This document shows, piece after piece, positions 12,037 to 52,084 of a stretch of 56,893 nucleotides of DNA. Position 1 is the first letter of the stretch; the number at the start of each line of letters is the position of its first letter. Both the position numbers and the translations under genes were made by a program. The notes under the pieces were generated by a model, which searched no databases, had not been told where the DNA came from, and worked only from the letters and a program-made list of their open reading frames with translations. The stretch comes from a virus. The stretch spans positions 1 through 56,893 of the IMG/VR virus record IMGVR_UViG_3300032287_003360; one strand, given 5' to 3'.

Positions 12037-12810
12037 ATGACTACGCTTGCCCACGACACTCAGAACGACAACCGCTTCGAGCTGGCAATCAAGCGCGCTC
12101 GTGAACTCGGACGCGACTCCGTGAAGAGTGCGCTGTCCAAGCCCAATCTGGCAATCGAGCTGGTGCGCGGCATTGTCGATGACGTCATCGATGATGACAC
12201 CAAGATCGAAGGGCTCTTCGATGCCTATGTGGCGGCGCGCACCAAGGAAGTTGCGAAGCACGCCACGGCCCTGGGGGCCAACGAGGACAACGAGAACTCG
12301 ATCAAGTCCAATCGCTCCAAGCATCGGCAGCTTGCCCTCATGGCGAACCTGCCCATCCTCAAGAAGGAAGAGGACGGCGCGGTTCAGTTACTCGAAGAAG
12401 TAACCGAGCGGCGCACCGCGCTGATCTCTGGCGGTATCAAGGTCAAGCCGACCTATGATGCGTATGTCGATGTTGCGCGGGCACAGCTCAAGCAGGATCG
12501 CGAGCGGATTGGCGGCGACCTGATTGACGCCATCATCGCCAAGCCCGACGCCAAGGAAAGTGAGCTGATCGACAAGCTGATCACTCAGTACAAGGGGGTC
12601 TATCGCCTTGCCGAGAAGATGGCAGCCGACCAGGTTGACGTGACGCACATCGACACAGCGCGCCATGCGCTCGGTGACGCGATCACTGCCTTGGGATACG
12701 AACTCCCGGCCATGACCAAGGAGTCCAAGAAGGAAGCTGAAGTTGTCGGCTTCCTGATGGCCAAGGGGTTCGGCAAGGAGCAGGCGCGCGAGATCGCCCT
12801 GAAGAAGTAA
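12037..12810 (+). CDS. Early helical protein of unknown function
   Basis: 257 residues with AAGGAG upstream of ATG 12037. The product is acidic to neutral and almost entirely helical, with many Lys, Glu and Ala residues; residues 118-123 (LLEEVT) are encoded by an embedded copy of the palindrome at 12387-12404. The C-terminus (FGKEQAREIALKK) resembles a short helix found in UBA-like or DNA-associated domains, but this is weak. Its stop codon lies in a double palindrome array. I do not recognise a family. Confidence 0.65.
   Translation: MTTLAHDTQNDNRFELAIKRARELGRDSVKSALSKPNLAIELVRGIVDDVIDDDTKIEGLFDAYVAARTKEVAKHATALGANEDNENSIKSNRSKHRQLALMANLPILKKEEDGAVQLLEEVTERRTALISGGIKVKPTYDAYVDVARAQLKQDRERIGGDLIDAIIAKPDAKESELIDKLITQYKGVYRLAEKMAADQVDVTHIDTARHALGDAITALGYELPAMTKESKKEAEVVGFLMAKGFGKEQAREIALKK
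12387..12404. repeat. 18-bp palindrome copy inside early gene
   Basis: GTTACTCGAAGAAGTAAC with both arms perfect; read as LLEEVT. Confidence 0.85.
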
Positions 12811-12837
12811 CTTCGCAAGGTAACCCTGCGAAGTAAC
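12807..12837. repeat. Double palindrome array at a gene end
   Basis: GTAAC-N8-GTAAC-N8-GTAAC with a 13-bp period. The first arm contains the TAA stop of the upstream gene. The two centres (TTCGCAAG and CCTGCGAA) are complementary, so ACTTCGCA and TGCGAAGT can pair as an 8-bp hairpin. Confidence 0.8.
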
Positions 12838-13566: not shown

Positions 13567-13782
13567 ATGACATGGGTGGATATACCCAAGCCCGCCGCTG
13601 CTCAATTCAAAGCGCTTGTCGCGCGCCTGCAAGAGCGCCTGACGAATTGCAAAGCCTCGCGCAAATTGAAAGCAGCCAACCCCAACGAATACCAGGCTGC
13701 ATGGACAAGTGGCTATGACGCCTCTCTCGATGACGAGATCGAGTTCCTGAGTGATCTGCTCGCCGCCATCGAGAAATCGTAA
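13567..13782 (+). CDS. Small early protein
   Basis: 71 residues, MTWVDIPKPAAAQFKALVAR onward. It is helical and mixed charge (a basic first half, then DASLDDEIEFLSDLLAAIEKS). No family is recognised. It starts from the palindrome at 13546 and its TAA stop lies in the next palindrome array. Confidence 0.65.
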   Translation: MTWVDIPKPAAAQFKALVARLQERLTNCKASRKLKAANPNEYQAAWTSGYDASLDDEIEFLSDLLAAIEKS

Positions 13783-13809
13783 CTTCACGAAGTAACTTCA
13801 GGAGGTAAC
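13779..13809. repeat. Double palindrome array
   Basis: GTAAC-TTCACGAA-GTAAC-TTCAGGAG-GTAAC with 13-bp period. The first arm holds a stop codon and the last centre holds the AGGAGG used by the gene at 13813. Confidence 0.88.
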
Positions 13810-14751: not shown

Positions 14752-15119
14752 CCCAGACCGTGTCTTATGTAGTCGCTACAGCTTTTTCTAAGCGCCGAGC
14801 ATATAGAGCGAGCGCTAACACGTCCACTGATGGCAAGTCGGTTACTTTACATGGTAGCAAGATCGCATGGTGGAACGATGACGGGTCCGTATCGTTGACG
14901 CTTGCGGGGTACCCTACCCCCACAACACGGGACCGGCTCAACACTATCTGCATGGTACTGGGATACGGTCATCCTTTCTACCAGCAGGGCTTTACTCAGT
15001 ACCACAGCGGGGCAGAAATCGGACAACATAGCGTCATCACATATCACCCGCTCTCTGGGGAGCTTGACCCGGAGAAGTTACTTCAGGAGGTAACTTCGGG
15101 AGATAACTTCGGGAGGTAA
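14745..15119 (+). CDS. Early protein whose C-terminus is encoded by a palindrome array
   Basis: 124 residues from ATG 14745, which overlaps the previous gene. The body is beta-rich (ASANTSTDGKSVTLHGSKIA). The last 15 codons (EKLLQEVTSGDNFGR) run through the triple palindrome array at 15077-15120, and the TAA stop lies in its final arm. The tail is therefore probably a by-product of the repeat having grown at the gene end. No known family. Confidence 0.6.
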   Translation: MVTQTVSYVVATAFSKRRAYRASANTSTDGKSVTLHGSKIAWWNDDGSVSLTLAGYPTPTTRDRLNTICMVLGYGHPFYQQGFTQYHSGAEIGQHSVITYHPLSGELDPEKLLQEVTSGDNFGR

Positions 15120-15120
15120 C
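15077..15120. repeat. Triple palindrome array
   Basis: GTTAC-TTCAGGAG-GTAAC-TTCGGGAG-ATAAC-TTCGGGAG-GTAAC, the longest array, 13-bp period, ending one base before the ATG at 15122. Confidence 0.9.
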
Positions 15121-15121
15121 T

Positions 15122-16953: not shown

Positions 16954-17526
16954 ATGAAGAAGTCAACACAAAAAGAAATAGTCTGGAGCGAGTTTTCTCG
17001 TGCTCTGGCAAATGCGATCGCAGATAAATTTCTGGCACCAGAAAGAGAGGCCGTTGAGGCTACTCTGAAGGACCTGAAAGACAGGGTCGTGAACGAGCAC
17101 TACTTGCCCCTCAAAAAGCATTTGGACAAACTGCCGGATGGAGTGGTGGGTGTGGGGAGTGGTGTCTTTGTTGCGTGCCCTGAACTCAAACGGGGGCTAT
17201 CTATGTATGTGAGGGTGTCGCAAGATATTCAACGTGTTCCGCATGCGCTGTTCCTGCCAGCATCATTGTTCGGTGCTCTTAAAGCGGCTCAGGAAACGAG
17301 AAACGAAATTGAAAGACGTGCCGAAGCTCTGGCTATGGACCTGTGCAACAACATCGTGATGGCCGACAGCTTCGAAGAAGTCATCGCCAAGTGGCCAGAG
17401 TGCAAGGAACTCGCCGAAGAATGTGCAGTGAAGCACGCCACGACGATGTGCTATCCTTTGTCGCGGATCCTCGGCAAGTACAGCTTGGCTCCTCTTCCTG
17501 CACCCGAAGCAAAGCGCCTGACGTAA
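16954..17526 (+). CDS. Early protein, weakly Nmad5-like
   Basis: 190 residues with AGGAG before ATG 16954. The order of features (an N-terminal helical region, 'LKKHLDKLPDGVVGVGSGVF', 'PHALFLPASLFGALKAAQET' and a late 'ADSFEEVIAKWPECKELAEE') recalls phage proteins classed as nucleotide-modification-associated domain 5. This likeness is from memory and weak. No catalytic residues can be named. Its stop is in the next palindrome. Confidence 0.5.
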   Translation: MKKSTQKEIVWSEFSRALANAIADKFLAPEREAVEATLKDLKDRVVNEHYLPLKKHLDKLPDGVVGVGSGVFVACPELKRGLSMYVRVSQDIQRVPHALFLPASLFGALKAAQETRNEIERRAEALAMDLCNNIVMADSFEEVIAKWPECKELAEECAVKHATTMCYPLSRILGKYSLAPLPAPEAKRLT

Positions 17527-17540
17527 CTTCAGGGGGTAAC
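17523..17540. repeat. Palindrome copy joining two genes
   Basis: GTAACTTCAGGGGGTAAC: TAA stop, AGGGGG, then ATG at 17543. Confidence 0.88.
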
Positions 17541-17542
17541 TC

Positions 17543-17797
17543 ATGCCTGAGAAAACCGTAAACGAAGTCATCAGAGATATGATTATGGATGCTTTTGGCT
17601 GGCATATTACTGCCAGTCGGCGGATCGATGCGCATGGTACTCTCCATTTTGCTCCCGAAGACAACCACGATCGCCGAATGCTTCTCATATACGTTCGAGA
17701 AGGCCGGTGGTCGCGGGTTAAAGCGAAACTTCCATATGTCGGGATCAGCGAAAGTAAACAGGACACTATCCGCAACGCAATCACATTACTTGAGTGA
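17543..17797 (+). CDS. Tandem paralogue 1
   Basis: 84 residues, starting MPEKTVNEVIRDMIMDAFGW. It shares with the genes at 18103, 18374 and 18630 the frame 'K-T-(A/V)-N-E-V-I', a following 'M-x-x-D-A-(F/Y)', a middle aromatic segment, 'GRW/GRF', 'I-S' and the end 'IRNAITLLE'. These are products of gene duplication. The last codons LLE-stop come from the palindrome. Function unknown; the conserved N-terminal helix and C-terminal helix suggest a small helical domain. Confidence 0.72.
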   Translation: MPEKTVNEVIRDMIMDAFGWHITASRRIDAHGTLHFAPEDNHDRRMLLIYVREGRWSRVKAKLPYVGISESKQDTIRNAITLLE

Positions 17798-17802
17798 GTA
17801 AC
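17785..17802. repeat. Palindrome copy between paralogues
   Basis: ATTACTTGAGTGAGTAAC encodes the end LLE and TGA of the upstream gene and ends two bases before ATG 17805. The GAGTGAG serves as a poor ribosome-binding site. Confidence 0.88.
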
Positions 17803-17804
17803 TC

Positions 17805-18095
17805 ATGACCATAGAAGAGACCCATCTGGAAGTAATCCAGGAACTTCTTCGACAGTTCCCGGTGCGGCAGTGCTACGACAAGGACGGTAAGAAATGCGGG
17901 ATATCGAAGACACGCCAGTACCGCGCCAGGGAAAAAGCGCTTGCGGAAATGCAGTATATTTTGACGCAAACACAGCGGGGTTATTTGTGGAAGTCCACAT
18001 ACCGTAAGGACAGATTTGGGTATGTGATAAAGAACCTCGTTCGTGGCGGCGTTCCCGAGCAAGTCCTCAGCAGCGTTTTCTTGTTACTTGAGTGA
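17805..18095 (+). CDS. Tandem paralogue 2 (divergent)
   Basis: 96 residues, MTIEETHLEVIQELLRQFPV onward. It shares the tandem arrangement and the end 'SVFLLLE', also palindrome-encoded, but its centre differs: it is basic (GKKCGISKTRQYRAREKALA), like a DNA-binding helix-turn-helix segment. It may be a diverged member or an unrelated gene inserted into the array. Confidence 0.62.
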   Translation: MTIEETHLEVIQELLRQFPVRQCYDKDGKKCGISKTRQYRAREKALAEMQYILTQTQRGYLWKSTYRKDRFGYVIKNLVRGGVPEQVLSSVFLLLE

Positions 18096-18100
18096 GTAAC
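18083..18100. repeat. Palindrome copy between paralogues
   Basis: GTTACTTGAGTGAGTAAC, ends two bases before ATG 18103. Confidence 0.88.
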
Positions 18101-18102
18101 TC

Positions 18103-18366
18103 ATGCCAGAAGAAAGAGCTGACCCTGACAAATGTGCGGTCATCGTGCAGATGCTTTTCGATGCTTACACGCGGAGACCTGTTGAGTACCTTAGCAATAT
18201 ACCAAACACCTTTAGCAGTGTCCACATGGCACGTTCTTACCGGTACGAGCTTCTCGAATACGCCAGCGAAGGGCATTTCCAGCTTGTGAAGTTCACGCTT
18301 TGGCAGACCGGTATTAGCCCGGACGACCAAGTCGCTATCCGCAACGCCATCACATTACTTGAATGA
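18103..18366 (+). CDS. Tandem paralogue 3
   Basis: 87 residues, starting MPEERADPDKCAVIVQMLFD. 'VIVQMLFDAYTRRPVEYL', 'EGHFQLVKFTLWQTGISPDD' and the end 'VAIRNAITLLE' align with the other members. Stop TGA lies in the following palindrome. Function unknown. Confidence 0.72.
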   Translation: MPEERADPDKCAVIVQMLFDAYTRRPVEYLSNIPNTFSSVHMARSYRYELLEYASEGHFQLVKFTLWQTGISPDDQVAIRNAITLLE

Positions 18367-18371
18367 GTAAC
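18354..18371. repeat. Palindrome copy between paralogues
   Basis: ATTACTTGAATGAGTAAC, ends two bases before ATG 18374. Confidence 0.88.
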
Positions 18372-18373
18372 TC

Positions 18374-18622
18374 ATGACCGATAATGCAGACAAGAAAACC
18401 GCAAACGAAGTCATCGCGCAAATGCTTTCCGATGCTTACGATCGAAATCCCGTCGCGCTTGATGCTAATTCAACTGCCCAGCTAGTACGCTTCACGCGAA
18501 ACGATGCTATATTTTCCGCAGTCAGTGGGCGTTTTGAGTATGTGCGCCGCCAGCTTTGCATGCTTAAAATCAGCAAGGACGACGCGGTCACTATCCGCGA
18601 CGCCATCATGTTACTTTCGTAA
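18374..18622 (+). CDS. Tandem paralogue 4
   Basis: 82 residues, starting MTDNADKKTANEVIAQMLSD. Closest to the next gene: 'DAY(D/E)RNPVA', 'LVRFTR', 'GRFEYVRRQL' and 'KISKDDAVTIRDAI' all match it. This marks a recent duplication. Ends with LLS and TAA from the palindrome at 18610. Confidence 0.75.
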   Translation: MTDNADKKTANEVIAQMLSDAYDRNPVALDANSTAQLVRFTRNDAIFSAVSGRFEYVRRQLCMLKISKDDAVTIRDAIMLLS

Positions 18623-18627
18623 GTAAC
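18610..18627. repeat. Palindrome copy between paralogues
   Basis: GTTACTTTCGTAAGTAAC, both arms perfect; ends two bases before ATG 18630. Confidence 0.9.
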
Positions 18628-18629
18628 TC

Positions 18630-18869
18630 ATGGTTGAGAAAACCGCGAACAAAGTCATCAAGCAAATGCTTTTCGACGCTTACGAGCGAAACCCCGTCGC
18701 CGCGCGCTATGCTGATTCAACTCCTCCGCTAGTACACTTCACGCGGGACGCGGTTGTATGTTTTGCAGACCGTGGGCGTTTTGAGTATGTGCGCTATTCG
18801 CTCTCCAGACTTAAAATCAGCGCAGATGACGAGATCGCTATCCACAACGCCATTACGTTACTTTCGTAA
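18630..18869 (+). CDS. Tandem paralogue 5
   Basis: 79 residues, starting MVEKTANKVIKQMLFDAYER. Highly similar to paralogue 4 over its full length (NPVAARYADSTPPLVHFTRD, GRFEYVRYSLSRLKISADDE). It ends the array; the identical palindrome core follows but no start codon does. Function unknown. Confidence 0.75.
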   Translation: MVEKTANKVIKQMLFDAYERNPVAARYADSTPPLVHFTRDAVVCFADRGRFEYVRYSLSRLKISADDEIAIHNAITLLS

Positions 18870-18874
18870 GTAAC
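18857..18874. repeat. Palindrome copy ending the paralogue array
   Basis: GTTACTTTCGTAAGTAAC, identical to the copy at 18610, holding the last TAA stop. Confidence 0.9.
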
Positions 18875-18893
18875 GCACAAGGATCAGTATAGG

Positions 18894-18936
18894 AATACAA
18901 TCCTGTATTGACAAAAGGTTGTCAATGCGTTATGTG
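18894..18936 (+). promoter_or_regulatory. Promoter with two operator-like inverted repeats
   Basis: TTGACA at 18908-18913 is a perfect -35 box; 17 bases on lies TATGTG (18931-18936), a weak -10. The -35 box is one arm of the perfect repeat TTGACA-N6-TGTCAA (18908-18925), and AATACA-ATCC-TGTATT (18894-18909) abuts it. A dimeric repressor binding either would block the promoter. The gene at 18986 follows. Confidence 0.55.
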
Positions 18937-19332: not shown

Positions 19333-19364
19333 GGTTACTCTAGGAAGTAATTCCTAGAGTAACC
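19333..19364. repeat. Double palindrome folding into a 14-bp hairpin
   Basis: GGTTACTCTAGGAA and TTCCTAGAGTAACC are perfect complements around GTAA. It is two overlapping palindrome copies (19334-19351 and 19347-19363). It follows the stop at 19324 and could terminate or pause transcription, though no T tract follows. Confidence 0.88.
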
Positions 19365-19385: not shown

Positions 19386-19414
19386 AAACACCAGAACAGG
19401 AGAACAGCATGAAA
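19386..19414 (+). repeat. 29-bp direct repeat, copy 1 (translation start region)
   Basis: AAACACCAGAACAGGAGAAC followed by AGCATGAAA, spanning the ribosome-binding site and start codon of the gene at 19409. An exact copy lies at 19702-19730. Confidence 0.85.
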
Positions 19415-19969: not shown

Positions 19970-21055
19970 ATGAAGCTCAAGACTTTTTCTCGGCTTGCCA
20001 CTTCGCTCTATGTCTCTGGCAAGTGCGTGTATCTTCGCTCTGGTCCTGGTCGCGGCAAGACCACGACGATCCTCGACACGATCCCGCGCATCGCTGCTGC
20101 TACCAAGAAGCGGCTGGGTGTGTCGGTTGTCTCTGGCCCCAACCTCCAGCCCGGTGACACTGTCGGTTTCGGTATCCCCAAGCACAGCGAGAAGCATTCC
20201 GAAATGGTGTTCACGCTGCCCTTCTTCTGGCGCACCGAAGAGGGCAAGCTTCTCGAAGAGTATGACGGTGGCGTGATCTTTGTTGACGAAGCCGACAAGA
20301 TGGACGTTGACATCAAGAAGGTCATGGGTGAGATGGCGCTTTCTGGCCGCTGCGGTCCTCATCGTCTGCCGCCTGGTTGGGTGGTGTGGATGGCTGGCAA
20401 CCGTGCCGAGGATCGCTCCGGTTCCACCAAGGAACTTGATCACCTCATCAACCGGCGATACGAGATCAACGTCGATGACGACATCGAAGGCTGGGAAGAA
20501 TGGGCGCACAAGAACGGCGTGCATCCGTCGATCATCGCCTTTTCTGTATCCAACCCTCAGATCGTGTTCCCCGACAAGCTCCCCGAGAAGCAGGGTCCGT
20601 TCTGTACCCCCCGCTCGATCGTCAGTGTCGGCGAGGTGCTGGTTACTCTGTCAGGTAACCCCGATGGCAACCTGCCAACTGATACCGACGCAGTCGAGCT
20701 CGCTGCCGCTGGCATCGGTCCTGCTGCCGCTGGTCAGTTGTTCGCTACCTTGCGGCTTGAGGCAGAGTTGCCGAGCATCGAGAGCATCATCAACAGCCCT
20801 ACCACTACCAGGTTGCCCACAAAGCCCGACGCGCAGATGCTGGTCTGCTACAAGCTAGCGTCTCTGACCAAGGCGGAGAACATCACGCCGGTCATTACCT
20901 ACATCGAGCGCTTGCCTGCTGACTTCGCTGCCACTTATGCCAAGGCGGTTGTGACGCGGGTACCGACACTCGTCGCCCACAAGGCGGTGCTCGACTGGAC
21001 CAAGCGTAACGCCACACTGATGTCCACACTGTCGATGCTCAAGTCGGCGGCTTGA
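19970..21055 (+). CDS. MoxR-type AAA+ ATPase
   Basis: 361 residues with CACGGAG upstream of ATG 19970. Walker A GPGRGKT is at residues 25-31 (Lys30) and Walker B VIFVDEAD with Asp106-Glu107; 'WMAGNRAEDRSGSTKELDHL' and 'INRRYEINVDDDIEGW' fit sensor 1 and the arginine-finger region. MoxR ATPases usually work with a von Willebrand A partner as a chaperone or remodelling pair; such a partner is encoded 600 bases downstream. A palindrome copy at 20642 encodes VTLSGN. The target in the cell is unknown. Confidence 0.85.
   Translation: MKLKTFSRLATSLYVSGKCVYLRSGPGRGKTTTILDTIPRIAAATKKRLGVSVVSGPNLQPGDTVGFGIPKHSEKHSEMVFTLPFFWRTEEGKLLEEYDGGVIFVDEADKMDVDIKKVMGEMALSGRCGPHRLPPGWVVWMAGNRAEDRSGSTKELDHLINRRYEINVDDDIEGWEEWAHKNGVHPSIIAFSVSNPQIVFPDKLPEKQGPFCTPRSIVSVGEVLVTLSGNPDGNLPTDTDAVELAAAGIGPAAAGQLFATLRLEAELPSIESIINSPTTTRLPTKPDAQMLVCYKLASLTKAENITPVITYIERLPADFAATYAKAVVTRVPTLVAHKAVLDWTKRNATLMSTLSMLKSAA
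20642..20659. repeat. Palindrome copy inside the AAA+ gene
   Basis: GTTACTCTGTCAGGTAAC, both arms perfect; read as VTLSGN. Confidence 0.88.
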
Positions 21056-21462
21056 TGGCGCACGTCAAGGTCGGGCGTTACAAATTTCACGGCTCGGAAG
21101 TTGAAGTTACTATGAAAGGTAACAACGACTTCCGAGAGACGTGGGCCGCCCGCTTCTGGGGTAACATAGACAAAACCGAATACTACCGAATGGTCGGCGG
21201 TGTTCTTAACTGGGATCACATCATGGCACGTAAAACCTACCGCATCGAACTGAAAATCGACTTCAACGACGACTCCAGACATGAAGCGCTTATCGGGGTG
21301 GCGAAGCAGTACGCTCGCGATTTCCTTGCCAGCGCCACGCTTCTCCAGGACCGAACCCGGCCTGCGTGCGTTCTCATCACTGACGATACTTTCGTCGGTA
21401 TGGAGGAAGTCAGCATCATTCCGGAGAGCGTCAACATCCACAAGGCTGGCGATGGACAGTGA
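21055..21462 (+). CDS. Small protein between the MoxR and VWA genes
   Basis: 135 residues from ATG 21055, which overlaps the upstream stop (TGATG); the TTG three bases earlier is less likely. 'MAHVKVGRYKFHGSEVEVTM' begins a beta-rich protein with 'WDHIMARKTYRIELKIDFND' in the middle. A palindrome copy at 21106 encodes VTMKGN. The close coupling to the AAA+ gene suggests a shared process. No family recognised. Confidence 0.65.
   Translation: MAHVKVGRYKFHGSEVEVTMKGNNDFRETWAARFWGNIDKTEYYRMVGGVLNWDHIMARKTYRIELKIDFNDDSRHEALIGVAKQYARDFLASATLLQDRTRPACVLITDDTFVGMEEVSIIPESVNIHKAGDGQ
21106..21123. repeat. Palindrome copy inside a gene
   Basis: GTTACTATGAAAGGTAAC, both arms perfect. Confidence 0.85.
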
Positions 21463-22935: not shown

Positions 22936-23091
22936 ATGCAGTGTGAAAAATGTCTCGCCGAAGTGACCGTCTTGCGCTTTCGCCGGGGGCGCAAGCGGTC
23001 TTCCACTAGCTATGTATGCAACGACTGTGGGAAGCAAGGTGTGGAGTGGAGAGATAACACACCGGCTGACGACAGTAACTTCAGCAAGTAA
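22936..23091 (+). CDS. Zinc-ribbon small protein
   Basis: 51 residues from ATG 22936, two bases after the VWA gene stop. 'MQCEKCLAEVTVLRFRRGRK' and 'SYVCNDCGKQGVEW' give two CxxC knuckles with a basic stretch between them, a typical zinc ribbon. The TAA stop lies in a palindrome at 23075. The spacing implies translation together with the VWA gene. Confidence 0.68.
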   Translation: MQCEKCLAEVTVLRFRRGRKRSSTSYVCNDCGKQGVEWRDNTPADDSNFSK

Positions 23092-23092
23092 C
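23075..23092. repeat. Palindrome copy at a gene end
   Basis: GTAACTTCAGCAAGTAAC containing the TAA stop. Confidence 0.85.
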
Positions 23093-23119
23093 CCCCCAGA
23101 CAACACGGAGACTTACCAC

Positions 23120-23908
23120 ATGGGTACGACTGTTTTTACACCTAACATTATGGCCAGACTTGCTGCCGAGGTGCGCGGTATGGCGAACAGGTTTTTCCTG
23201 ACAACCCCCATTGAAATCACCGCAGAGGAGTTTATATCCGGCTTTATCGATCCGGATCATGTGTCAATCCTCCGGCAAACAGAAAAAATATGCGGGCATA
23301 TCGGCAGCACGGGGGTCGCCGAGTTTCCGATCGTGGTCGGAGATACTGAAGAAACAAAAACCGCCATGGGGCTCTCGCTTAGCTTCAACAGGAAAACGCC
23401 TATCATAATCCCAAACTATGTGGCGGACGGGCTTCGAGAAAGCGCACCCGAAGCATTACGCGCTAAGATTACCGAGTGGGCAGAGCAGCGTTTTTCTCAT
23501 GGCTCCATGTTCGGTGACGCGCTTGACGCGCTTGAGTTTCTCAACAGATTGTGTGCTAATGCTCAAGCCATGACGGTTATGATGCCGATCGTACCTATTC
23601 TGATGCACAACTATGACCCTTCCGAAGGGTCACGCATGAGCAAGATCGCCGCAAAATTAACCGCCAAAAGAGCCGCAGGTAAGCTGCCCATGCTACCTCG
23701 CAAAGTAACTCAGCGGTTTCAGGACGTTTCCGCTTTTTTGACGGCGGTCAGCATGCTCGGAAAAGATGGCGCGCCTACTTCGTTATCGAATAGGCCGGAT
23801 GGAGCTGTACTCGATGTTTCACATCGTTTTGCCGCACGGCCTCATCGGCTGCATATGTGCTGTGGTATTGAACACATTGCCTCCAACCAAAAGGGCTCGT
23901 TCTTCTGA
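23120..23908 (+). CDS. Early protein of unknown function
   Basis: 262 residues from ATG 23120, preferred because ACGGAG lies upstream and a longer frame overlaps the zinc-ribbon gene. 'MGTTVFTPNIMARLAAEVRG' begins a helical protein; the centre has 'GDALDALEFLNRLCANAQAM'. The C-terminal 40 residues differ in composition (HRFAARPHRLHMCCGIEHI), so a frameshift or recent tail is possible. A palindrome copy at 23692 encodes LPRKVT. A strong hairpin follows. Confidence 0.6.
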   Translation: MGTTVFTPNIMARLAAEVRGMANRFFLTTPIEITAEEFISGFIDPDHVSILRQTEKICGHIGSTGVAEFPIVVGDTEETKTAMGLSLSFNRKTPIIIPNYVADGLRESAPEALRAKITEWAEQRFSHGSMFGDALDALEFLNRLCANAQAMTVMMPIVPILMHNYDPSEGSRMSKIAAKLTAKRAAGKLPMLPRKVTQRFQDVSAFLTAVSMLGKDGAPTSLSNRPDGAVLDVSHRFAARPHRLHMCCGIEHIASNQKGSFF

Positions 23909-26019: not shown

Positions 26020-26346
26020 ATGGACGCCACCACAGAAGATAAACCGATCGAGCTTGCTGACTTGCAGGTAAAGTTTCGGCTCTCGACCAGCATGGCCAAG
26101 GTCGTGATGCTATTGTTGAACAACAAGCGCGTCACTACGAACATGATCGAGTTTGATCACAAGATCGTAGTGGATGCTGGAGTCACAATTCATCACATTC
26201 GCCGCCGCCTTGAGGGCAGCGGTATTGTAGTTCGGTCTCAGCGCGACGTTGGGTACTGGATCGACGCGGATTCTAGGGTCAAGCTTTATCAGGCTCTCGG
26301 CATCGAAACACCTGTCGTTACTTCGCAGAGTAACCATAATGCATAG
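26020..26346 (+). CDS. Winged helix-turn-helix DNA-binding protein
   Basis: 108 residues from ATG 26020. The segment from about residue 15 to 90 follows the OmpR/PhoB-type effector domain: 'LSTSMAKVVMLLLNNKRVTT', a recognition-helix region 'AGVTIHHIRRRLEGSGIVVR' and the wing 'QRDVGYWIDA'. No receiver domain is present. It is the only clear DNA-binding regulator in the genome and is the first gene after a promoter, so it is a candidate reader of the dispersed palindrome; that link is inference. A perfect palindrome copy near its end encodes VTSQSN. Confidence 0.72.
   Translation: MDATTEDKPIELADLQVKFRLSTSMAKVVMLLLNNKRVTTNMIEFDHKIVVDAGVTIHHIRRRLEGSGIVVRSQRDVGYWIDADSRVKLYQALGIETPVVTSQSNHNA
26317..26334. 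repeat. Palindrome copy inside the winged-helix gene
   Basis: GTTACTTCGCAGAGTAAC, both arms perfect, five bases before the next gene's ATG at 26339. Confidence 0.88.
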
Positions 26347-28514: not shown

Positions 28515-30058
28515 TCCACATATCACAAAAACACCGTGTCATCGGTGTACCGTGGCGACCTGAGTTTGATCAGTTCTTCCCGGAAGCCAAGCGGGTTACT
28601 TTGGGAGGTAACAAGCTGGTGGTTGTTCCTCACGAGATGAACGTCACGCGTTACCTCCGAAACATCGGACTCGATGTTCCTGCCCCGATTATTGCCCACT
28701 ATGATTGGGCTGGCGGTAAACCGTTCGATATTCAGAAGAAGACCGCTGCGCTCTTAACCATGAACTCGCGGGCATATGTGCTCAACGGTATGGGCACTGG
28801 CAAGACCAAGGCTAGCCTGTGGTCGTGGCATTACCTTTATACGACAGGGGGAGCGGGAAAGCTCCTGGTGGTCGCTCCTCTGTCTACCCTCAACTTCACT
28901 TGGGCACGGGAGATATTTCAGACCCTGTCCGGCATCAAGGTACAAGTACTGCATGGCAGCAAACAAAAGAGGCTGGATAAGCTCGCTGATCAAGAAGCTG
29001 ACGTTTATATTGTCAATCACGACGGTCTTAATGTTATCGCTGGGGCTCTCGCGGACAGACCGGATATTGACTGCTGTATCCTTGATGAGTTGGCTGTCTA
29101 TCGGAATGGTGCTTCACAGCGCGCGAAGGTTACTCGACAAGTAACGAAGCGCATGAAGTGGTTGTGGGGCATGACTGGGTCACCAACGCCCAACGCCCCA
29201 ACAGACGCATGGGCGCAGTGTTCTATCATCACGCCCGGCAACGTCCCAAAATACTTCAATCGGTTCCGTGATGAGACGATGAACCGAGTCACACAGTTCA
29301 AGTACGCGCCGAAAGAAGGCGCGCTGGACCGGGTATTCGAGGTGATGCAGCCCGCTGTGCGGTTTACACTGGACGACGTGATGGAGTTACCTGAGCTCGT
29401 TGAGCGCACGATCGACATCGATATGGGACCGCGTCAGGCCAAGGTCTACAAGCAAATGGAAGAGCGTGCATACGCCATGGTAGCCTCTAACGAGATCACT
29501 GCCATGAACGCTGGCGCGGTTCTCATGAAGCTGCTTCAGATCAGTACCGGCTATGTCTACGCCAGGGACAAGTCAGTTGTATCGCTCGATAACGACGAGC
29601 GTCTGGAAGCACTGGTCGACGTGGTCAACTCGTCTGACCGGAAAGTGATTGTGTTTGTGCCCTTCGTGCATGCCCTTGGGAGCATCGCAGGGCGGCTTAC
29701 TTCGGAAGGTTACGATATCAGGACCGTATCAGGAGACACGCCCAAATCGGAAAGAGATCAGATATTCCAGCTTTTCCAGAATACCAGCGCCGTGAAAGTA
29801 ATCGTTGCGCATCCACAGTGCATGGCTCATGGCATTACGCTTACGGCTGCCGACACCATCATATGGTTCGCGCCAACTCCGAACCTTGAGATCTTCGAGC
29901 AAGCCAATGCTCGCATTCGCCGCGTAGGTCAGAAGCATCGACAGCAAGTGCTGATGTTTCAGGCTACCAAAGCGGAGAAAAAGATGTACGCGAAGCTCCG
30001 TGCGAAGCAGCGCGTTCAGAATGCCCTCCTCGAAATGTTTGAGGATGGATCAGAGTAA
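28511..30058 (+). CDS. SNF2-family helicase/translocase
   Basis: 515 residues. Walker A GMGTGKT is at 93-99 (Lys98), motif II is DEL (Asp192-Glu193) where DEAH is usual, motif III is 'GMTGSPTPNAPTDAW', and the C-terminal domain ends with 'EQANARIRRVGQ', motif VI. It uses ATP to move on double-stranded DNA, probably together with the VRR-NUC protein. Palindromes at 28595 (VTLGGN) and 29129 (17 bp, VTRQVT) lie inside it, and a third holds its stop. Confidence 0.88.
   Translation: MIHISQKHRVIGVPWRPEFDQFFPEAKRVTLGGNKLVVVPHEMNVTRYLRNIGLDVPAPIIAHYDWAGGKPFDIQKKTAALLTMNSRAYVLNGMGTGKTKASLWSWHYLYTTGGAGKLLVVAPLSTLNFTWAREIFQTLSGIKVQVLHGSKQKRLDKLADQEADVYIVNHDGLNVIAGALADRPDIDCCILDELAVYRNGASQRAKVTRQVTKRMKWLWGMTGSPTPNAPTDAWAQCSIITPGNVPKYFNRFRDETMNRVTQFKYAPKEGALDRVFEVMQPAVRFTLDDVMELPELVERTIDIDMGPRQAKVYKQMEERAYAMVASNEITAMNAGAVLMKLLQISTGYVYARDKSVVSLDNDERLEALVDVVNSSDRKVIVFVPFVHALGSIAGRLTSEGYDIRTVSGDTPKSERDQIFQLFQNTSAVKVIVAHPQCMAHGITLTAADTIIWFAPTPNLEIFEQANARIRRVGQKHRQQVLMFQATKAEKKMYAKLRAKQRVQNALLEMFEDGSE
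28595..28612. repeat. Palindrome copy inside the SNF2 gene
   Basis: GTTACTTTGGGAGGTAAC, both arms perfect; read as VTLGGN. Confidence 0.88.
29129..29145. repeat. 17-bp palindrome variant inside the SNF2 gene
   Basis: GTTACTCGACAAGTAAC with a 7-base centre; read as VTRQVT. Confidence 0.8.
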
Positions 30059-39900: not shown

Positions 39901-42900
39901 CGCATGAAATCCAGCGTCATGGTTTTCAGCGCTGCACTACGGAAAAACCGGGCAACACGGCTTTCGCCTTTACCTTTGAAGGCAGGAGCTTCGGGCCGCT
40001 TGGGGACACTAGGACCCATACCTGGAGAAGGAGGCTCTTTGTACGGCGGCACCACACCGGTATCAGCCTGGTTACTTTCTGAAGTATCCTTTTTGCCGAA
40101 CGTTTTTATGGCTTCTTCGATAAGGTATGGTACTGTCTCGGGGTCGACGCTCTTACCAACCTCAGCTTTCAAGTAGTCATTGATCTCTTTGGCTTGAGCC
40201 TGAGATACGCCGCCGTCGCGCAGCATTGTCCAGTAAGACTGCTTTTTCTGCTCTGGCTGACTCCGAAACGCTTGCGCGACTGCGCCCAGATCAGCATCGC
40301 TGATTCCGCCTTTGAAATTCTCAGCGATAATTTTGGCTGCGTTGCGCGCTGTCTTGGGCTCAAGGCCGCGCTTGATAAGCTCGCCGACATTGGGGTTTTT
40401 AGCCTTGGCGTAGCGCACTTCCGACATAGGACCGGGAGCAACCGCCGTGTCGCCTTTACGCTTACGAATTTCAGTACCCAGCTTATCGAGGCGACCACCG
40501 ATTTCCATGATGGCATCGAGAACAGAGTATCCATCACCGTCGCCAAAAAGCGCTTTGTTGATGGACAGCACCACATCGCGAACCATGCTGCGCAGCGCGC
40601 CCCAGACAGTCTTGTCGGCTTCTTTATCGAGCCTAAGAAGCGCTGCAACTTCATCAGGGATCGGAGTATCGCGCAGAATCTCTTGAAACTCAGGTTCACT
40701 TAGCGCCTCCGAGAGGAACTCGTGCGGATCGACGCGCCCGGTCCTCTTGTCGATAGTCAAGCCATAGTGTTCGTTGGCAGCTTCTTCAGTAACAAACGAC
40801 CCACGGACATAGTCACCAAGCGACGTCACCAGTTCATGCAGCTCAGGGTCGTTTACAAGAGCAGCAGAGAACAGTGCGTGCAAGCCCTCATGTGCAACAA
40901 GATGAGCGCGCGGGCGACCATCTACAGCGTATTTGGTACTGATGGCAATGTAGCCGCTCTTACCAAAGCGAGAAGGCCTGGGGTCAAAATAAGCAGCAGC
41001 GCCGTTGTTCGTAATACGCATCATCTCTGAGTGCGGGATGATAATGATCGGCAGGTCAGGGATAGCTTCTTTGAGGCGACCAAGAATTGCACTGATGACT
41101 TTTTGGGTATTCTTGTCACCAAACAGTTTGATGCTGCCAGGGTCCAGCCGATCCATTGCTTCCGCTACCGTCATCTTTTCAGAGATAATGCGCGGCGTTG
41201 CGTCCAGGACTACGTTGCCTTTGTCCGAACGAACGGTAGTATCCTGTTTCAGTGCCAGCTTAGGGCGATCTGAAGCATTCGAAGCAGCCTTTGCAGCGCC
41301 GGTCAGCGCCTTGGCTGCGGCAGTAGCCTTCGTTTTATCTTCTGCCGAGAGCTCAATCTTCTTGCGCCCTTTGCCGACTTTCTCGACAACTTTGGCTGTC
41401 TTATTGCCAGATACTGCCGTGTAGCCAGGGTTACTCTCAGAAGTAACTTGCTGGCGCTTACCAGAAACCGGTGCCTGATCTGCTACTTCGTCGTTAGCAA
41501 CCGCCTGGGCGTCCTCGTCGCCCTCTTGACGGGCAATAAGGTTATCTTCCGGCGTCATGTTGTTAGCCGGGATATCTTCGATAATATCGTCGGTTTCACC
41601 GGTCTTGCTGGTCTTGGTCGCTTTCGCCATGCTGGCGATATCGCCTTCGACGCCGCGAGCTTCAAGGTAATCCTTGACCATGCCCGCGCGCAGTAACGCT
41701 TCCGCAGACCGAAAGTTGTCAAAATCTTCGAGCGTAGGGTTCTTTCTGCCCGCCAGCTTGCGAGCTTCCCACAAGATCATCTGGGCAGCATTCGGAGCAA
41801 GAGTTGGATCAGCCGACGGCTTGAGGCGATCGAACAATACCTTGCCACTCCTGTCAGGAGCAAGGCGGCTACCAGTCTTTTCCGCCATCTGCTTGACGCG
41901 AGCCAGAATCGAGTTCCTCGCCACATCACCCTGCGGGCCGTTGCTGCGGTACTTATCCTCGCGCTCGTTGGTAGTGTGCTCGTCAATAATTTCGTCGGCT
42001 ACGCGCTTGTTGTTTACGCGGCGCGCAGTTTCTGCTTTGCCTTCTTTTGATGCACGGTCAAGAGTTTCTTCTTCAACCTGACCGGAAGCCGCACGCTCTT
42101 GTTCCGCTTCTTGACGGGCTTCAGCTTCCCTCAGACTGGCTTCAGCCTTTTCCTGTTGCTCACGCTGTCCAATTGCATTCTCGGCTTCTTGCCGAATAGC
42201 CTCGTCTGTTACTGACTTGAGTATGCGCGGTTTGCCGGTCTCTGGAGAAGCAACAGTTTCTTCTTGCGCCTTCTGGCGCTGCTCTTCTACATAAGCGTTA
42301 ATACGCGCCTGGCGCTCGGCTTTCTGTTGCGCGACAAGATCCTCGGCGGCGGGGCCTTCCTTCGCTTTAGATGCCTCAGCAGCCTTCTGTGTTTTGGGCG
42401 GTAGCTTAGCAACGCGCTCAGCACGATCGGCAGCAGCTTTCTCTGCTGCTTTGGTACGCAGACCCTGAATCTCAGTCCATGCCTTCGTCAGGGCCTGCTC
42501 GCGCTCAGCAGGGTCCATGTACTCCAGGCGCTCGCCCGTATCACGCTGCACCTTCGCGCGCAGATCAGCAGCCATGCGATCGCGAGCTTTTGGTTTCATT
42601 GTGTCGTACTGCTCAGCAGGAATACCTGCATCAAGCAGTACGTCCCGCCGTGTTACGGTGCGGTACTTGCGTTTTTCGGGTGCAGCAGGCGCTTCAGCCG
42701 GTGCGACAGGACTTTCCTGCTCGGCTGAAGGGAGGACGTCTGGAACAGCCTCAACAGGGCTAAAAGGGGCCTCTACAGGGGCAACATTGGTAGGAGCAGC
42801 CTCAGTAGGGTCAGGTTCTTCAAGCCTCTGTAGGGCTTCCGCTGGGGCGCTGGGAGCCTGTGTAGCTTCGGGGGTAGGAGCAGGAGCAGGAGCAGAAGTG

Positions 42901-44390: not shown

Positions 44391-47300
44391 CAGAGGCCCT
44401 CAACAGAATAGCCTGCGTCCTGAAGCTTCTTGATTACACCAGCGCGGCTGCGCCCCTCGGCAATTGCCGCTTTTGCCTTCGCCAGCACATCAGGTGGCAC
44501 CGGTTTACCTTTGGAAGTAACCGGTGCGGTCTTATTTTGCAAATACCCAGCTTTGCTACCTACAGGTGCCGCCTGAGCGTCACCGCTAACAGGCGGCGGA
44601 ACTGGATTGGTCGGAATTGCTTCTTCGCCAGTGCCCTCTTCGCCAGGCATAGGAGCGCCAAAGCTTCTATCAATCGAGTCAATGATGACTTGGAGCGTTT
44701 CCGGATCGTTGTCTTGAAACGCTTTCTGCCATGCCCGTTTCTGCCCGGCAGTCATCTGCGGGGCGTAAGCGTCGTACAACTCGTTAAGCGTACCCGCCCG
44801 GCGCGTGCGCTTATCAAGATCGCGCTGCTCCTGAGCAGTGCGGTTTTTCTCGGTACGCTCGTCGACCGCTTGGTTTTGCTCCTGGAAACGCTTGTCAGAA
44901 CGAGTGTTCTCACGCCGCCTATCGACATTTGCCATAATGTCGTCAAGCGCTTCGGGATCAACTTCTTCAACAGCGGCGTCCCACTGCTCCCTTTCACTTG
45001 GCGTCATATCCGCTTCGTAATCGGCGCGCAGCTTAACCTTACCGTTTACGCGGCGCTGACGCTTTGCGAGATCTTTTTCTTCGGCTTCTTTGCTGCGCTT
45101 ATCGATACGCTCTTCGCTGGCGTCGAGGCGCTTATCAAGATTGGCTTCGGTAGCCTTGCGGCCTTCTTCAAGACGACGATCAATGATTTCGTCGCGTTTG
45201 GTCTGAGTTTTCTCTTTGGCTTTCTCGCGGCGACGAAATTGCACATTCCCGATGATTTTGTTAAGCGTTTCGTAGTCTCCGTCTTCGACCGCAGCGCTCC
45301 ACGCTTCGATCTCGCCAGGATCCATATCTTGCTCCATATCGGGAAGAAGCTTATCAAGGTTGCTCGCCCGCGCTTTAGCCCGTTCCTCTTTGCGGGCAGA
45401 AGCGGAAGCAGAAGCCGACGTGCCAGGTTCGGCTACGTTCATCAAGGCCTCAAAGTAACCCGAGCCCGCCGAAATGCCAGTAGCCATTTGGAAGACCTGC
45501 TGCGGTGTCAGCATATGCTGATCAACTACATCGCCACTTTCGTTGGTGCGCGTGACCTGGTATCCGCCGCTAACAGGCTGAACGTCTGCATTCAATCCAT
45601 CAGGAACAGCATCATATGCTTTGATTGCATACTTAACCATACCATCTACGTCGCCGTTTTTGCCCGCTTGCACGGCTTCGTAGCCATACCGGCGTGACAG
45701 CAAGTTCGAATACTGAATAAGCGCTCCAGCCCATTTGCCCGCTTTGTCGACGTCGCCACGCTTCAGGTAGAACTCCACGCCTTTCTGCATAGCGTAGACC
45801 GTGCGCATGCTATCTTCGATCTCGCCATTAGGGTCTACCAACTGGTAAATTTGCTGAACTTCTTGCGAAGTCGGCGGACCTTCATTTGGAGCGATTGCTC
45901 CGTTTACCAACTTGCGTTGCTTGTTCCGTAAATCGGGATCAGGACCAATAGCAGACCCGCTGCGATCGAGGCCCAGTGACTTGGTGAGATGCTTCAAGCC
46001 GAGATCAATAGCCTTGCCAACACTTACACTTTCGCCAGCGGGGCGTTCGCGTTGGTCCATTGCCAAGGCGTTGCGGTTAGCGTTACGGTTGGCATCGCTC
46101 CGGTTACTTGCCGGAGTAACCGGAATTGCTTGAGCAGGTGCTTCTTCGAGCTGGTTATCGGTTTCTTCCATTGGTGCCGAGGCAACAGTACCGCCATCGG
46201 CAAACATACCAATGCTTTTTTTGTTACCTGGTTTTTTCGGAAAACCACCCAAGCCACCCAAGCCACCAAAGCCACTGAGGATAGAAGGTTTGTTGGATGG
46301 AGGTTTAGAAGGCTTTTTGTTCGGAGGTTTGAAACTTCCATCAATCATGTAGTCAATAACAGAAGGTTTGTTGGATGGAGGTTTAGAAGGCTTTTTGTTC
46401 GGAAGTTGGAAGTTTTCAGCAAGCATGTAGTCAATAACAGAAGGTTTGTTGCCCTGTGACCCAGAGTGAATACTGTCTGTAATACTGTTTATAATATTGT
46501 TAGATTTCTGGGGTTTTTTATCTTCCGCAACGTCTGGCACATCTGCAACAGCCCCAACAGTCTGCTGCGGACGCCAAACACCCAAAGAGTTTGTCGGTCT
46601 AACAACGCGCGAAACTTCGTCTGCCCACGGTACAGTAGTCGTAGAAGCCGAGTACGGTGCATCGAGTGGAATAGCTTCTACCGGCGCAGGCGCAGGTATT
46701 GGTCCAGTCCGAGGATCACGCGGGGGTATCCATGGGTTTTTTTTCTTGGGCGACTTACCCAATGAAGGCTTGGGACGGACCATGGGCTTGGGACGGACCA
46801 TGGGCTTGGTCTGCCGTGATGGTACAGACATACCACGGGCCGCATACAGGGTAGGAGTCCCGGTCAGATCGCCCGGCTTGTAGAGTTTTGCGCCTTCCGG
46901 AATATCGATCGCAGAAATATCATTTGACGCATCACGCGAGCTTTCAAGTAAGTCATCTGCCTGATAAGGATCTTCGCTTGAACCTTCAGCAGGGGCACTT
47001 TCTGGATTGCCCGCTACTTCAGTATTACTAGAGCCGGGAGGAGACCATTCAGTGTAGCTGGAAGGAATAGCGCTATCGCCCTGCGGGCTACCTTTGCCAA
47101 TATCAAAACCATAGAAGCTGGCAATCTGGGTCGCAGCTTCCATACCCGTAGATTTAATACCGTTTACGGCAAGTCCCTTTTGAACTTGCCTGGCAAGCTT
47201 GTCGCTACCCTTACCCGTCAAAAGGTAGGTCGCTCCACCGAGCCCTTGCTGGTGTGCCAAAGCGAGTTCGCCATAAGTTGGCTCGCGACCAAGTGTTTTT

Positions 47301-52053: not shown

Positions 52054-52084
52054 GTTACTTCGAAAAGTTACTTCACAGAGTAAT
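52054..52084. repeat. Double palindrome array in the late arm
   Basis: GTTAC-TTCGAAAA-GTTAC-TTCACAGA-GTAAT with 13-bp period, between minus-strand genes; the last arm contains the TAA stop of the DUF6321-like gene. It repeats the stop-array-gene layout of the early arm in the opposite orientation. Confidence 0.85.

Follow-up and report, generated by a model that had tools for sequence, protein, structure and literature searches.

Tandem duplication of a small gene family and a dispersed, clade-wide DNA dyad in a phage genome

Origin of the question

Five small genes lie head to tail at 17543-18869 on the + strand of an IMG/VR virus record of 56,893 bases, which was analysed as a whole and is called the window here. 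The locus raises the question of how such an array grew, what the repeats between its genes are, and what its products do. All five open reading frames placed there by the initial annotation were found, with lengths of 79-96 aa.

General features of the window and its relatives

Among the products of the window are capsid and packaging proteins of podovirus type, together with a DNA polymerase, a helicase and a primase-like protein. An AAA ATPase adjoins a metallopeptidase, as read from the sequence and from annotated homologues in Rhizobium phage RHph_TM27A. No DNA-level match to the window was detected among 50,697 phage records. The nearest named phages are Rhizobium phages of the RHph_TM27A group, with 38% over the primase-like protein and 42% over an internal virion protein, and complete relatives in the clade are podovirus-like with ~58-64 kb. 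Similar to the window, RHph_TM27A shows the overall gene order from terminase to AAA ATPase, metallopeptidase, DNA polymerase, helicase and primase-like protein, and it possesses the same dyad repeat, described below. However, no genes of the two array families, A and B, were detected in RHph_TM27A, and its commonest dyad form is GTTACC, not GTTACT.

An N4-like (Schitoviridae) reading was dropped because the window lacks a giant virion RNA polymerase; the matches of its 2473-aa protein correspond to DarB-like and unknown families, not to RNA polymerase. Three proteins of unknown function (12037-12810, 23012-23908, and 21052-21462) are kept in most relatives covering them, and the 12037 gene lies near the start of the left arm of + strand genes. 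Searches for tRNAs and against Rfam gave no hits.

Gene content of the array

Four of the five genes belong to one family, A, namely copies A1 (17543-17797, 84 aa), A3 (18103-18366, 87 aa), A4 (18374-18622, 82 aa), and A5 (18630-18869, 79 aa), while the second gene, B (17805-18095, 96 aa), stands apart. The paralogy of the four, as proposed in the initial annotation, is confirmed by a search of the window and by shuffle tests. With copy 4 as query, the search returned copy 5 (61% identity, 6e-22), copy 3 (44%, 7e-9), and copy 1 (36%, 4e-5), and did not return B. The six pairs among the A copies reached shuffle z values of 14.8-37, or 6.7-34 when the last ten residues were removed, and B against each of the four A copies remained at chance level (-0.9 to 1.1). 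On this sequence evidence, B is a family distinct from A. Copies 4 and 5 are indeed the closest pair (bootstrap 94), and the branch uniting A1, A3 and the A gene of the nearest relative, L008, has a bootstrap of 39.

The shared motifs listed in the initial annotation hold for the family only in part, and the list claims a little too much. Only copies 4 and 5 have GRFEYVR unaltered, copy 3 having GHFQLVK and copy 1 GRWSRVK. MLxDAYxRxPV is absent from copy 1 and KT(A/V)NxVI from copy 3; ISxDD is also absent from copy 1, and the IR of the last motif is IH in copy 5.

The same locus in relatives

Contigs of relatives were gathered around the ATPase gene, over which L008 is 91% alike. L008 starts within the homologue of window gene 16193, so the whole interval is visible. 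At the same place it possesses one A gene (L008:465-725; profile E 1.9e-15) followed by one B gene (L008:722-1009), flanked by a different small gene and the downstream homologue of 18986; its B shares 30% identity with the window B (E 5e-7, a single comparison). The flanking small gene, L008:202-480, resembles by eye L015:8774-9064 and L009:2182-2475, both located directly before the 18986 homologue with neither A nor B between. Profile searches of the loci found no family A or B member at this site in L009, L011 and L015. No further members were found for A and B in IMG/VR or for A in GTDB genomes, in profile searches based on short peptide patterns, which distant members can escape.

With four A genes and one B in the window against one of each in L008 at the same locus, copy number differs between related phages, in agreement with the proposed growth of the array by tandem duplication. 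The only relative carrying the family has it at this very place, and not as unrelated insertions elsewhere. The array is thus a real, lineage-specific expansion of an orphan family. The simplest history is that an A-B pair was inserted in the lineage shared by L008 and the window and that A then expanded in the window; as read from the sequences, the A-B pair grew to A-B-A-A-A in the window lineage, the direction (gain here versus loss there) being drawn from one comparison and the absence in more distant relatives. The dS of A4/A5 is 0.37, compared with 0.80 for the ATPase between the window and L008, and the A4/A5 duplication therefore most likely took place after the split from L008. The locus would then represent an accessory cassette made up of two families of small, largely helical proteins, of which A has grown recently by tandem duplication.

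Selection, predicted structure and possible function

The A4/A5 pair shows a dN/dS of 0.70, with 16 synonymous and 39 non-synonymous changes (Fisher p 0.28 against equal rates), compared with 0.08 for the ATPase and 0.40 for B, although saturation is close for B and for the remaining A pairs. Judged by these rates, A4/A5 is under relaxed constraint, and not under demonstrated positive selection.

AlphaFold2 predicted four helices for family A (five sequences; A4 model, pLDDT 77, pTM 0.64) and four for family B (two sequences; pLDDT 81.5, pTM 0.71). A4 and A5 are least conserved after helix 1 (40%, against 81% and 62% on either side), and their divergence falls mostly in the predicted loop between helices 1 and 2, where the model also reaches its lowest confidence. 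Foldseek with the A and B models returned nothing significant, and neither Pfam and PHROGs for the five array proteins nor Pfam for the L008 homologues gave a credible match. The only profile match of family A was a weak one to glutaminase C-terminal chains (E 0.1), a weak ankyrin-like lead. Neither a Pfam match nor ankyrin profile matches with at least two stacked repeats were found for A, and an ankyrin-like reading is retained as no more than this lead.

Host takeover or counter-defence is our best guess for the array proteins, whose action would most likely be directed at the host in early infection, the label 'early' being taken only from their position in the arm. Families A and B were seen in two phage contigs only, which makes them candidates for new host-directed proteins. 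The initial annotation suggested an arms race with a host target. The A copies would then be diversified inhibitors or decoys of host proteins serving counter-defence, present in several versions as the host target varies. In line with this, the small tandem accessory genes lie upstream of a Lar-like restriction-alleviation gene at 19409, constraint on A4/A5 is relaxed relative to the neighbouring ATPase, and in phage T4 the gene for the 85-aa ToxN inhibitor TifA is amplified through recombination between short homologous stretches (PMC9391042). Nonetheless, no dN/dS exceeds 1 and A4/A5 does not differ from neutral, no family, fold or structure match was obtained, nothing points to a host target, and most of the divergence sits in a loop that was modelled with low confidence. 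The arms race therefore did not gain support as proposed, and we regard it as possible but doubtful.

Junctions between the array genes

Each array junction consists of one copy of an 18-bp dyad, GTWAC-N8-GTWAC, all on the + strand. The copy before A1 (GTAACTTCAGGGGGTAAC, 17523-17540) holds AGGGGG, the one strong Shine-Dalgarno sequence in the array. The A1/B copy (17785-17802) supplies the final LLE and stop codon of A1 as well as the spacer that leads to the B ATG. Further copies were found between B and A3 (GTTACTTGAGTGAGTAAC, 18083-18100), between A3 and A4 (ATTACTTGAATGAGTAAC, 18354-18371), and between A4 and A5 (GTTACTTTCGTAAGTAAC, 18610-18627); the last form also closes the array (18857-18874), where it is conserved in L008. 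Seen as an inverted repeat, TTACT-N6-AGTAA, the junction contains the stop codon and encodes a terminal LLE or LLS, so that the genes end in TTA CTT GAG TGA, TTA CTT GAA TGA or TTA CTT TCG TAA.

This bears on the relation of B to A. The LLE end of B had been noted as a feature in common with its neighbours, and the likeness stands, since all array genes end in LLE or LLS. It is, however, a feature at the DNA level, encoded by the intergenic repeat, and is therefore not evidence of common descent. An ancient common origin, by which all five genes would form one family, could draw on the similar size, the four predicted helices of each, the neighbourhood of A and B in both phages, and a possible match of a C-terminal helical hairpin (hhalign E 0.011). 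Against it stand an hhalign probability of only 3.7%, pairwise scores at chance except for two marginal pairs with L008 proteins, and the dyad-dictated end. We consider B as an ancient paralogue of A unlikely, and continue to treat it as a separate family.

The four internal junctions are identical in anatomy: stop codon, 7 nt, ATG, with no clear Shine-Dalgarno sequence. It is therefore probable that the genes are translated in a coupled series, which would start at the ribosome site in front of A1. Recombination at the repeats, as suggested in the initial annotation, is a plausible route of array growth, since dyads bound each unit at both ends. Unequal recombination between neighbouring dyads or units would add or remove whole genes and leave the junctions intact.

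Downstream of the array, a conserved stretch at 18888-18929, also present in L008, holds TTGACA and the inverted repeat ATTGACAAAAGGTTGTCAAT, and may serve the next operon as promoter or terminator. A long near-perfect palindrome, GGTTACTCTAGGAAGTAATTCCTAGAGTAACC, precedes the Lar-like gene at 19333-19364, and a similar palindrome is found at L008:1457-1484.

The dyad across the window and the clade

The repeats between the array genes are not specific to the array, and are part of a genome-wide and clade-wide dyad. The strict form, GT(A/T)AC-N8-GT(A/T)AC, occurs 30 times in the window, whereas 200 first-order Markov sequences had on average 0.125 copies and never more than 2; at a start spacing of 13, GTTAC is followed by GTAAC 18 times (0.11 expected), and GTAAC by GTAAC 11 times (0.15 expected). 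Examples within and between genes are located at 767-796, 12387-12404, 13779-13809, 20642-20659, 28595-28612, 41430-41447, 46103-46120, and 52054-52084. RHph_TM27A has 25 strict dyads (0.03 expected), and the relaxed form reaches 46 copies in each of the two genomes. The dyad can also extend into short arrays with GTAACTTCNNGAA-like units (12807-12837, 13779-13809 and 15077-15121): half-sites follow at 13-bp steps, three in a row in the first two, and at steps of 13 and then 26 in the third.

In most relatives, an unbiased scan for interrupted palindromes gave as the leading one a variant of TTACY-N5/6-RGTAA or the GTTAC-N7/8-GTAAC frame; many sequence pairs were tested and some loci are short, so that entries of 3-5 copies are weak, the cases with 12-21 copies being unaffected. 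The core is shifted to TTACCC-N3-GGGTAA in L024 and to TACCTT-N2-AAGGTA in L026, and L025 has TTTCCCA-N-TGGGAAA alongside TTACC-N6-GGTAA. In the more distant Vibrio phage 252E42.2 the dyad was absent from the same scan; the record of Pseudomonas phage Rollin, which consists largely of N, was set aside. When IMG/VR was scanned blind with nothing but GTTACCTNNNNAGGTAAC, at least 120 stretches matched, most with one or two sites. The six dyad-richest among the matches listed had 9-19 sites (~0.1 expected) and all belong to this clade, as assigned by comparison with the terminase, portal, capsid, ATPase, helicase or primase of the window.

No description of the element was found in the open-access literature searched, that on tandem early paralogues in phages included, which is no proof of its being unreported. 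The dyad thus exposes a DNA element common to a broad, little-studied clade that includes culturable Rhizobium phages.

Conservation of the dyad and its recognition

Twelve dyads fall in DNA aligned between the window and L008 or L007. Their cores are 91% identical, compared with 73% for the spacers and 74% for all aligned DNA, and in eight of the twelve the core is intact, compared with 6.9% of random windows. GTWAC was kept in 20 of 25 cases inside dyads and in 12 of 32 lone ones. The half-site tolerates a change of the outer G and the central T-to-A change, and wobble-type changes at A4 and C5 were seen 0-1 times. As the central change breaks RNA pairing and the wobble changes are nearly absent, recognition as DNA by a protein is favoured; the pattern of substitutions agrees with a protein site on DNA and disagrees with an RNA hairpin. 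An intrinsic terminator or RNA hairpin was rejected for the junction repeat on the same grounds.

An RNA element, such as a hairpin for coupling, processing or translational repression, could use the 6-7 bp stem possible at 18083 and 18610, across stop and start, and the left-arm copies contain the ribosome site. However, the 11 strict GTAAC-N8-GTAAC pairs, against 18 of GTTAC-N8-GTAAC, break the stem centrally, G-U variants are almost lacking, and copies occur inside genes, including those on the opposite strand, which makes an RNA element improbable. That the dyads are a by-product of stop codon and Shine-Dalgarno constraints, or mobile palindromic repeats, is very improbable: many left-arm dyads do join TAA and GGAGG just before ATG, but about half of the RHph_TM27A dyads lie inside genes, cores are kept in homologous genes while spacers drift, and the existence of lineage-specific cores built alike (TTACT, TTACC, TTACCC) speaks for a binder that co-evolves with them.

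Possible role of the dyad and a candidate binder

Recognition by a protein being the preferred reading, the dyad would most likely be the binding site of a putative phage-encoded dimeric DNA-binding protein, which would control or insulate transcription at gene boundaries. Among the relaxed sites of RHph_TM27A, 21 of 46 lie between genes or at their edges (5 expected) and 25 inside genes; 14 dyads immediately precede a start (1.8 expected). A role at gene boundaries alone would not account for the roughly one half of the dyads within coding sequence.

The window also encodes a stand-alone 108-aa protein (26020-26346), conserved in several dyad-rich relatives, which resembles the PhoB/OmpR winged-helix domain (Pfam Trans_reg_C in three of eight members, best E 7e-4; a PhoB-family chain in the PDB, E 0.046). 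One homologue lies at L029:19583-19975. Not every dyad-bearing locus yielded the protein, several of these loci being incomplete, and it is a weak candidate for the dyad binder. The relatives with shifted cores (L024, L025 and L026) are useful for finding a DNA-binding protein that co-varies with the dyad.

Overall reading and comparison with known systems

Taken together, we favour, as fairly probable, a joint explanation: an A/B cassette grown by tandem duplication of A in units running from dyad to dyad, translated in a coupled manner, within a clade-wide protein-bound DNA element, and with products acting on the host. The occurrence of the dyad dozens of times per genome in a little-known phage group suggests an undescribed control system. 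In its full form, this would be a phage DNA-binding protein acting clade-wide on 30-50 palindromic sites in genes and at boundaries, with a core that shifts between lineages, the sites in the window serving also as seams for the duplication of small host-directed genes; we hold this form to have not quite an even chance.

For the array, the closest known case is the dmd-tifA region of T4, in which a small counter-defence gene is multiplied in tandem by recombination at short flanking homologies (PMC9391042). Similar to T4, the window has a small gene in tandem copies with short flanking repeats; however, the T4 copies are recent products of laboratory evolution (PMC9391042), whereas the A copies of the window have diverged to ~33-61% identity.

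For the dyad, the comparison is with the stoperators and operators of Cluster A mycobacteriophages (L5, TipsytheTRex), more than 20 short genome-wide sites for one phage protein, many of them in short intergenic gaps (PMC9283540). The dyad likewise occurs as at least 20 near-identical dispersed sites, both in the window and in RHph_TM27A. In contrast, stoperators are 13-mers without symmetry that bind a monomer and follow the direction of transcription (PMC9283540), and the dyad is a palindrome of 16-18 bp; roughly half of its copies fall within genes, neither a repressor nor an integrase was identified in the dyad phages, and the phages are unrelated. Should the dyad prove to be a dispersed operator, it would represent, in unrelated phages, a palindromic equivalent of the mycobacteriophage stoperators.
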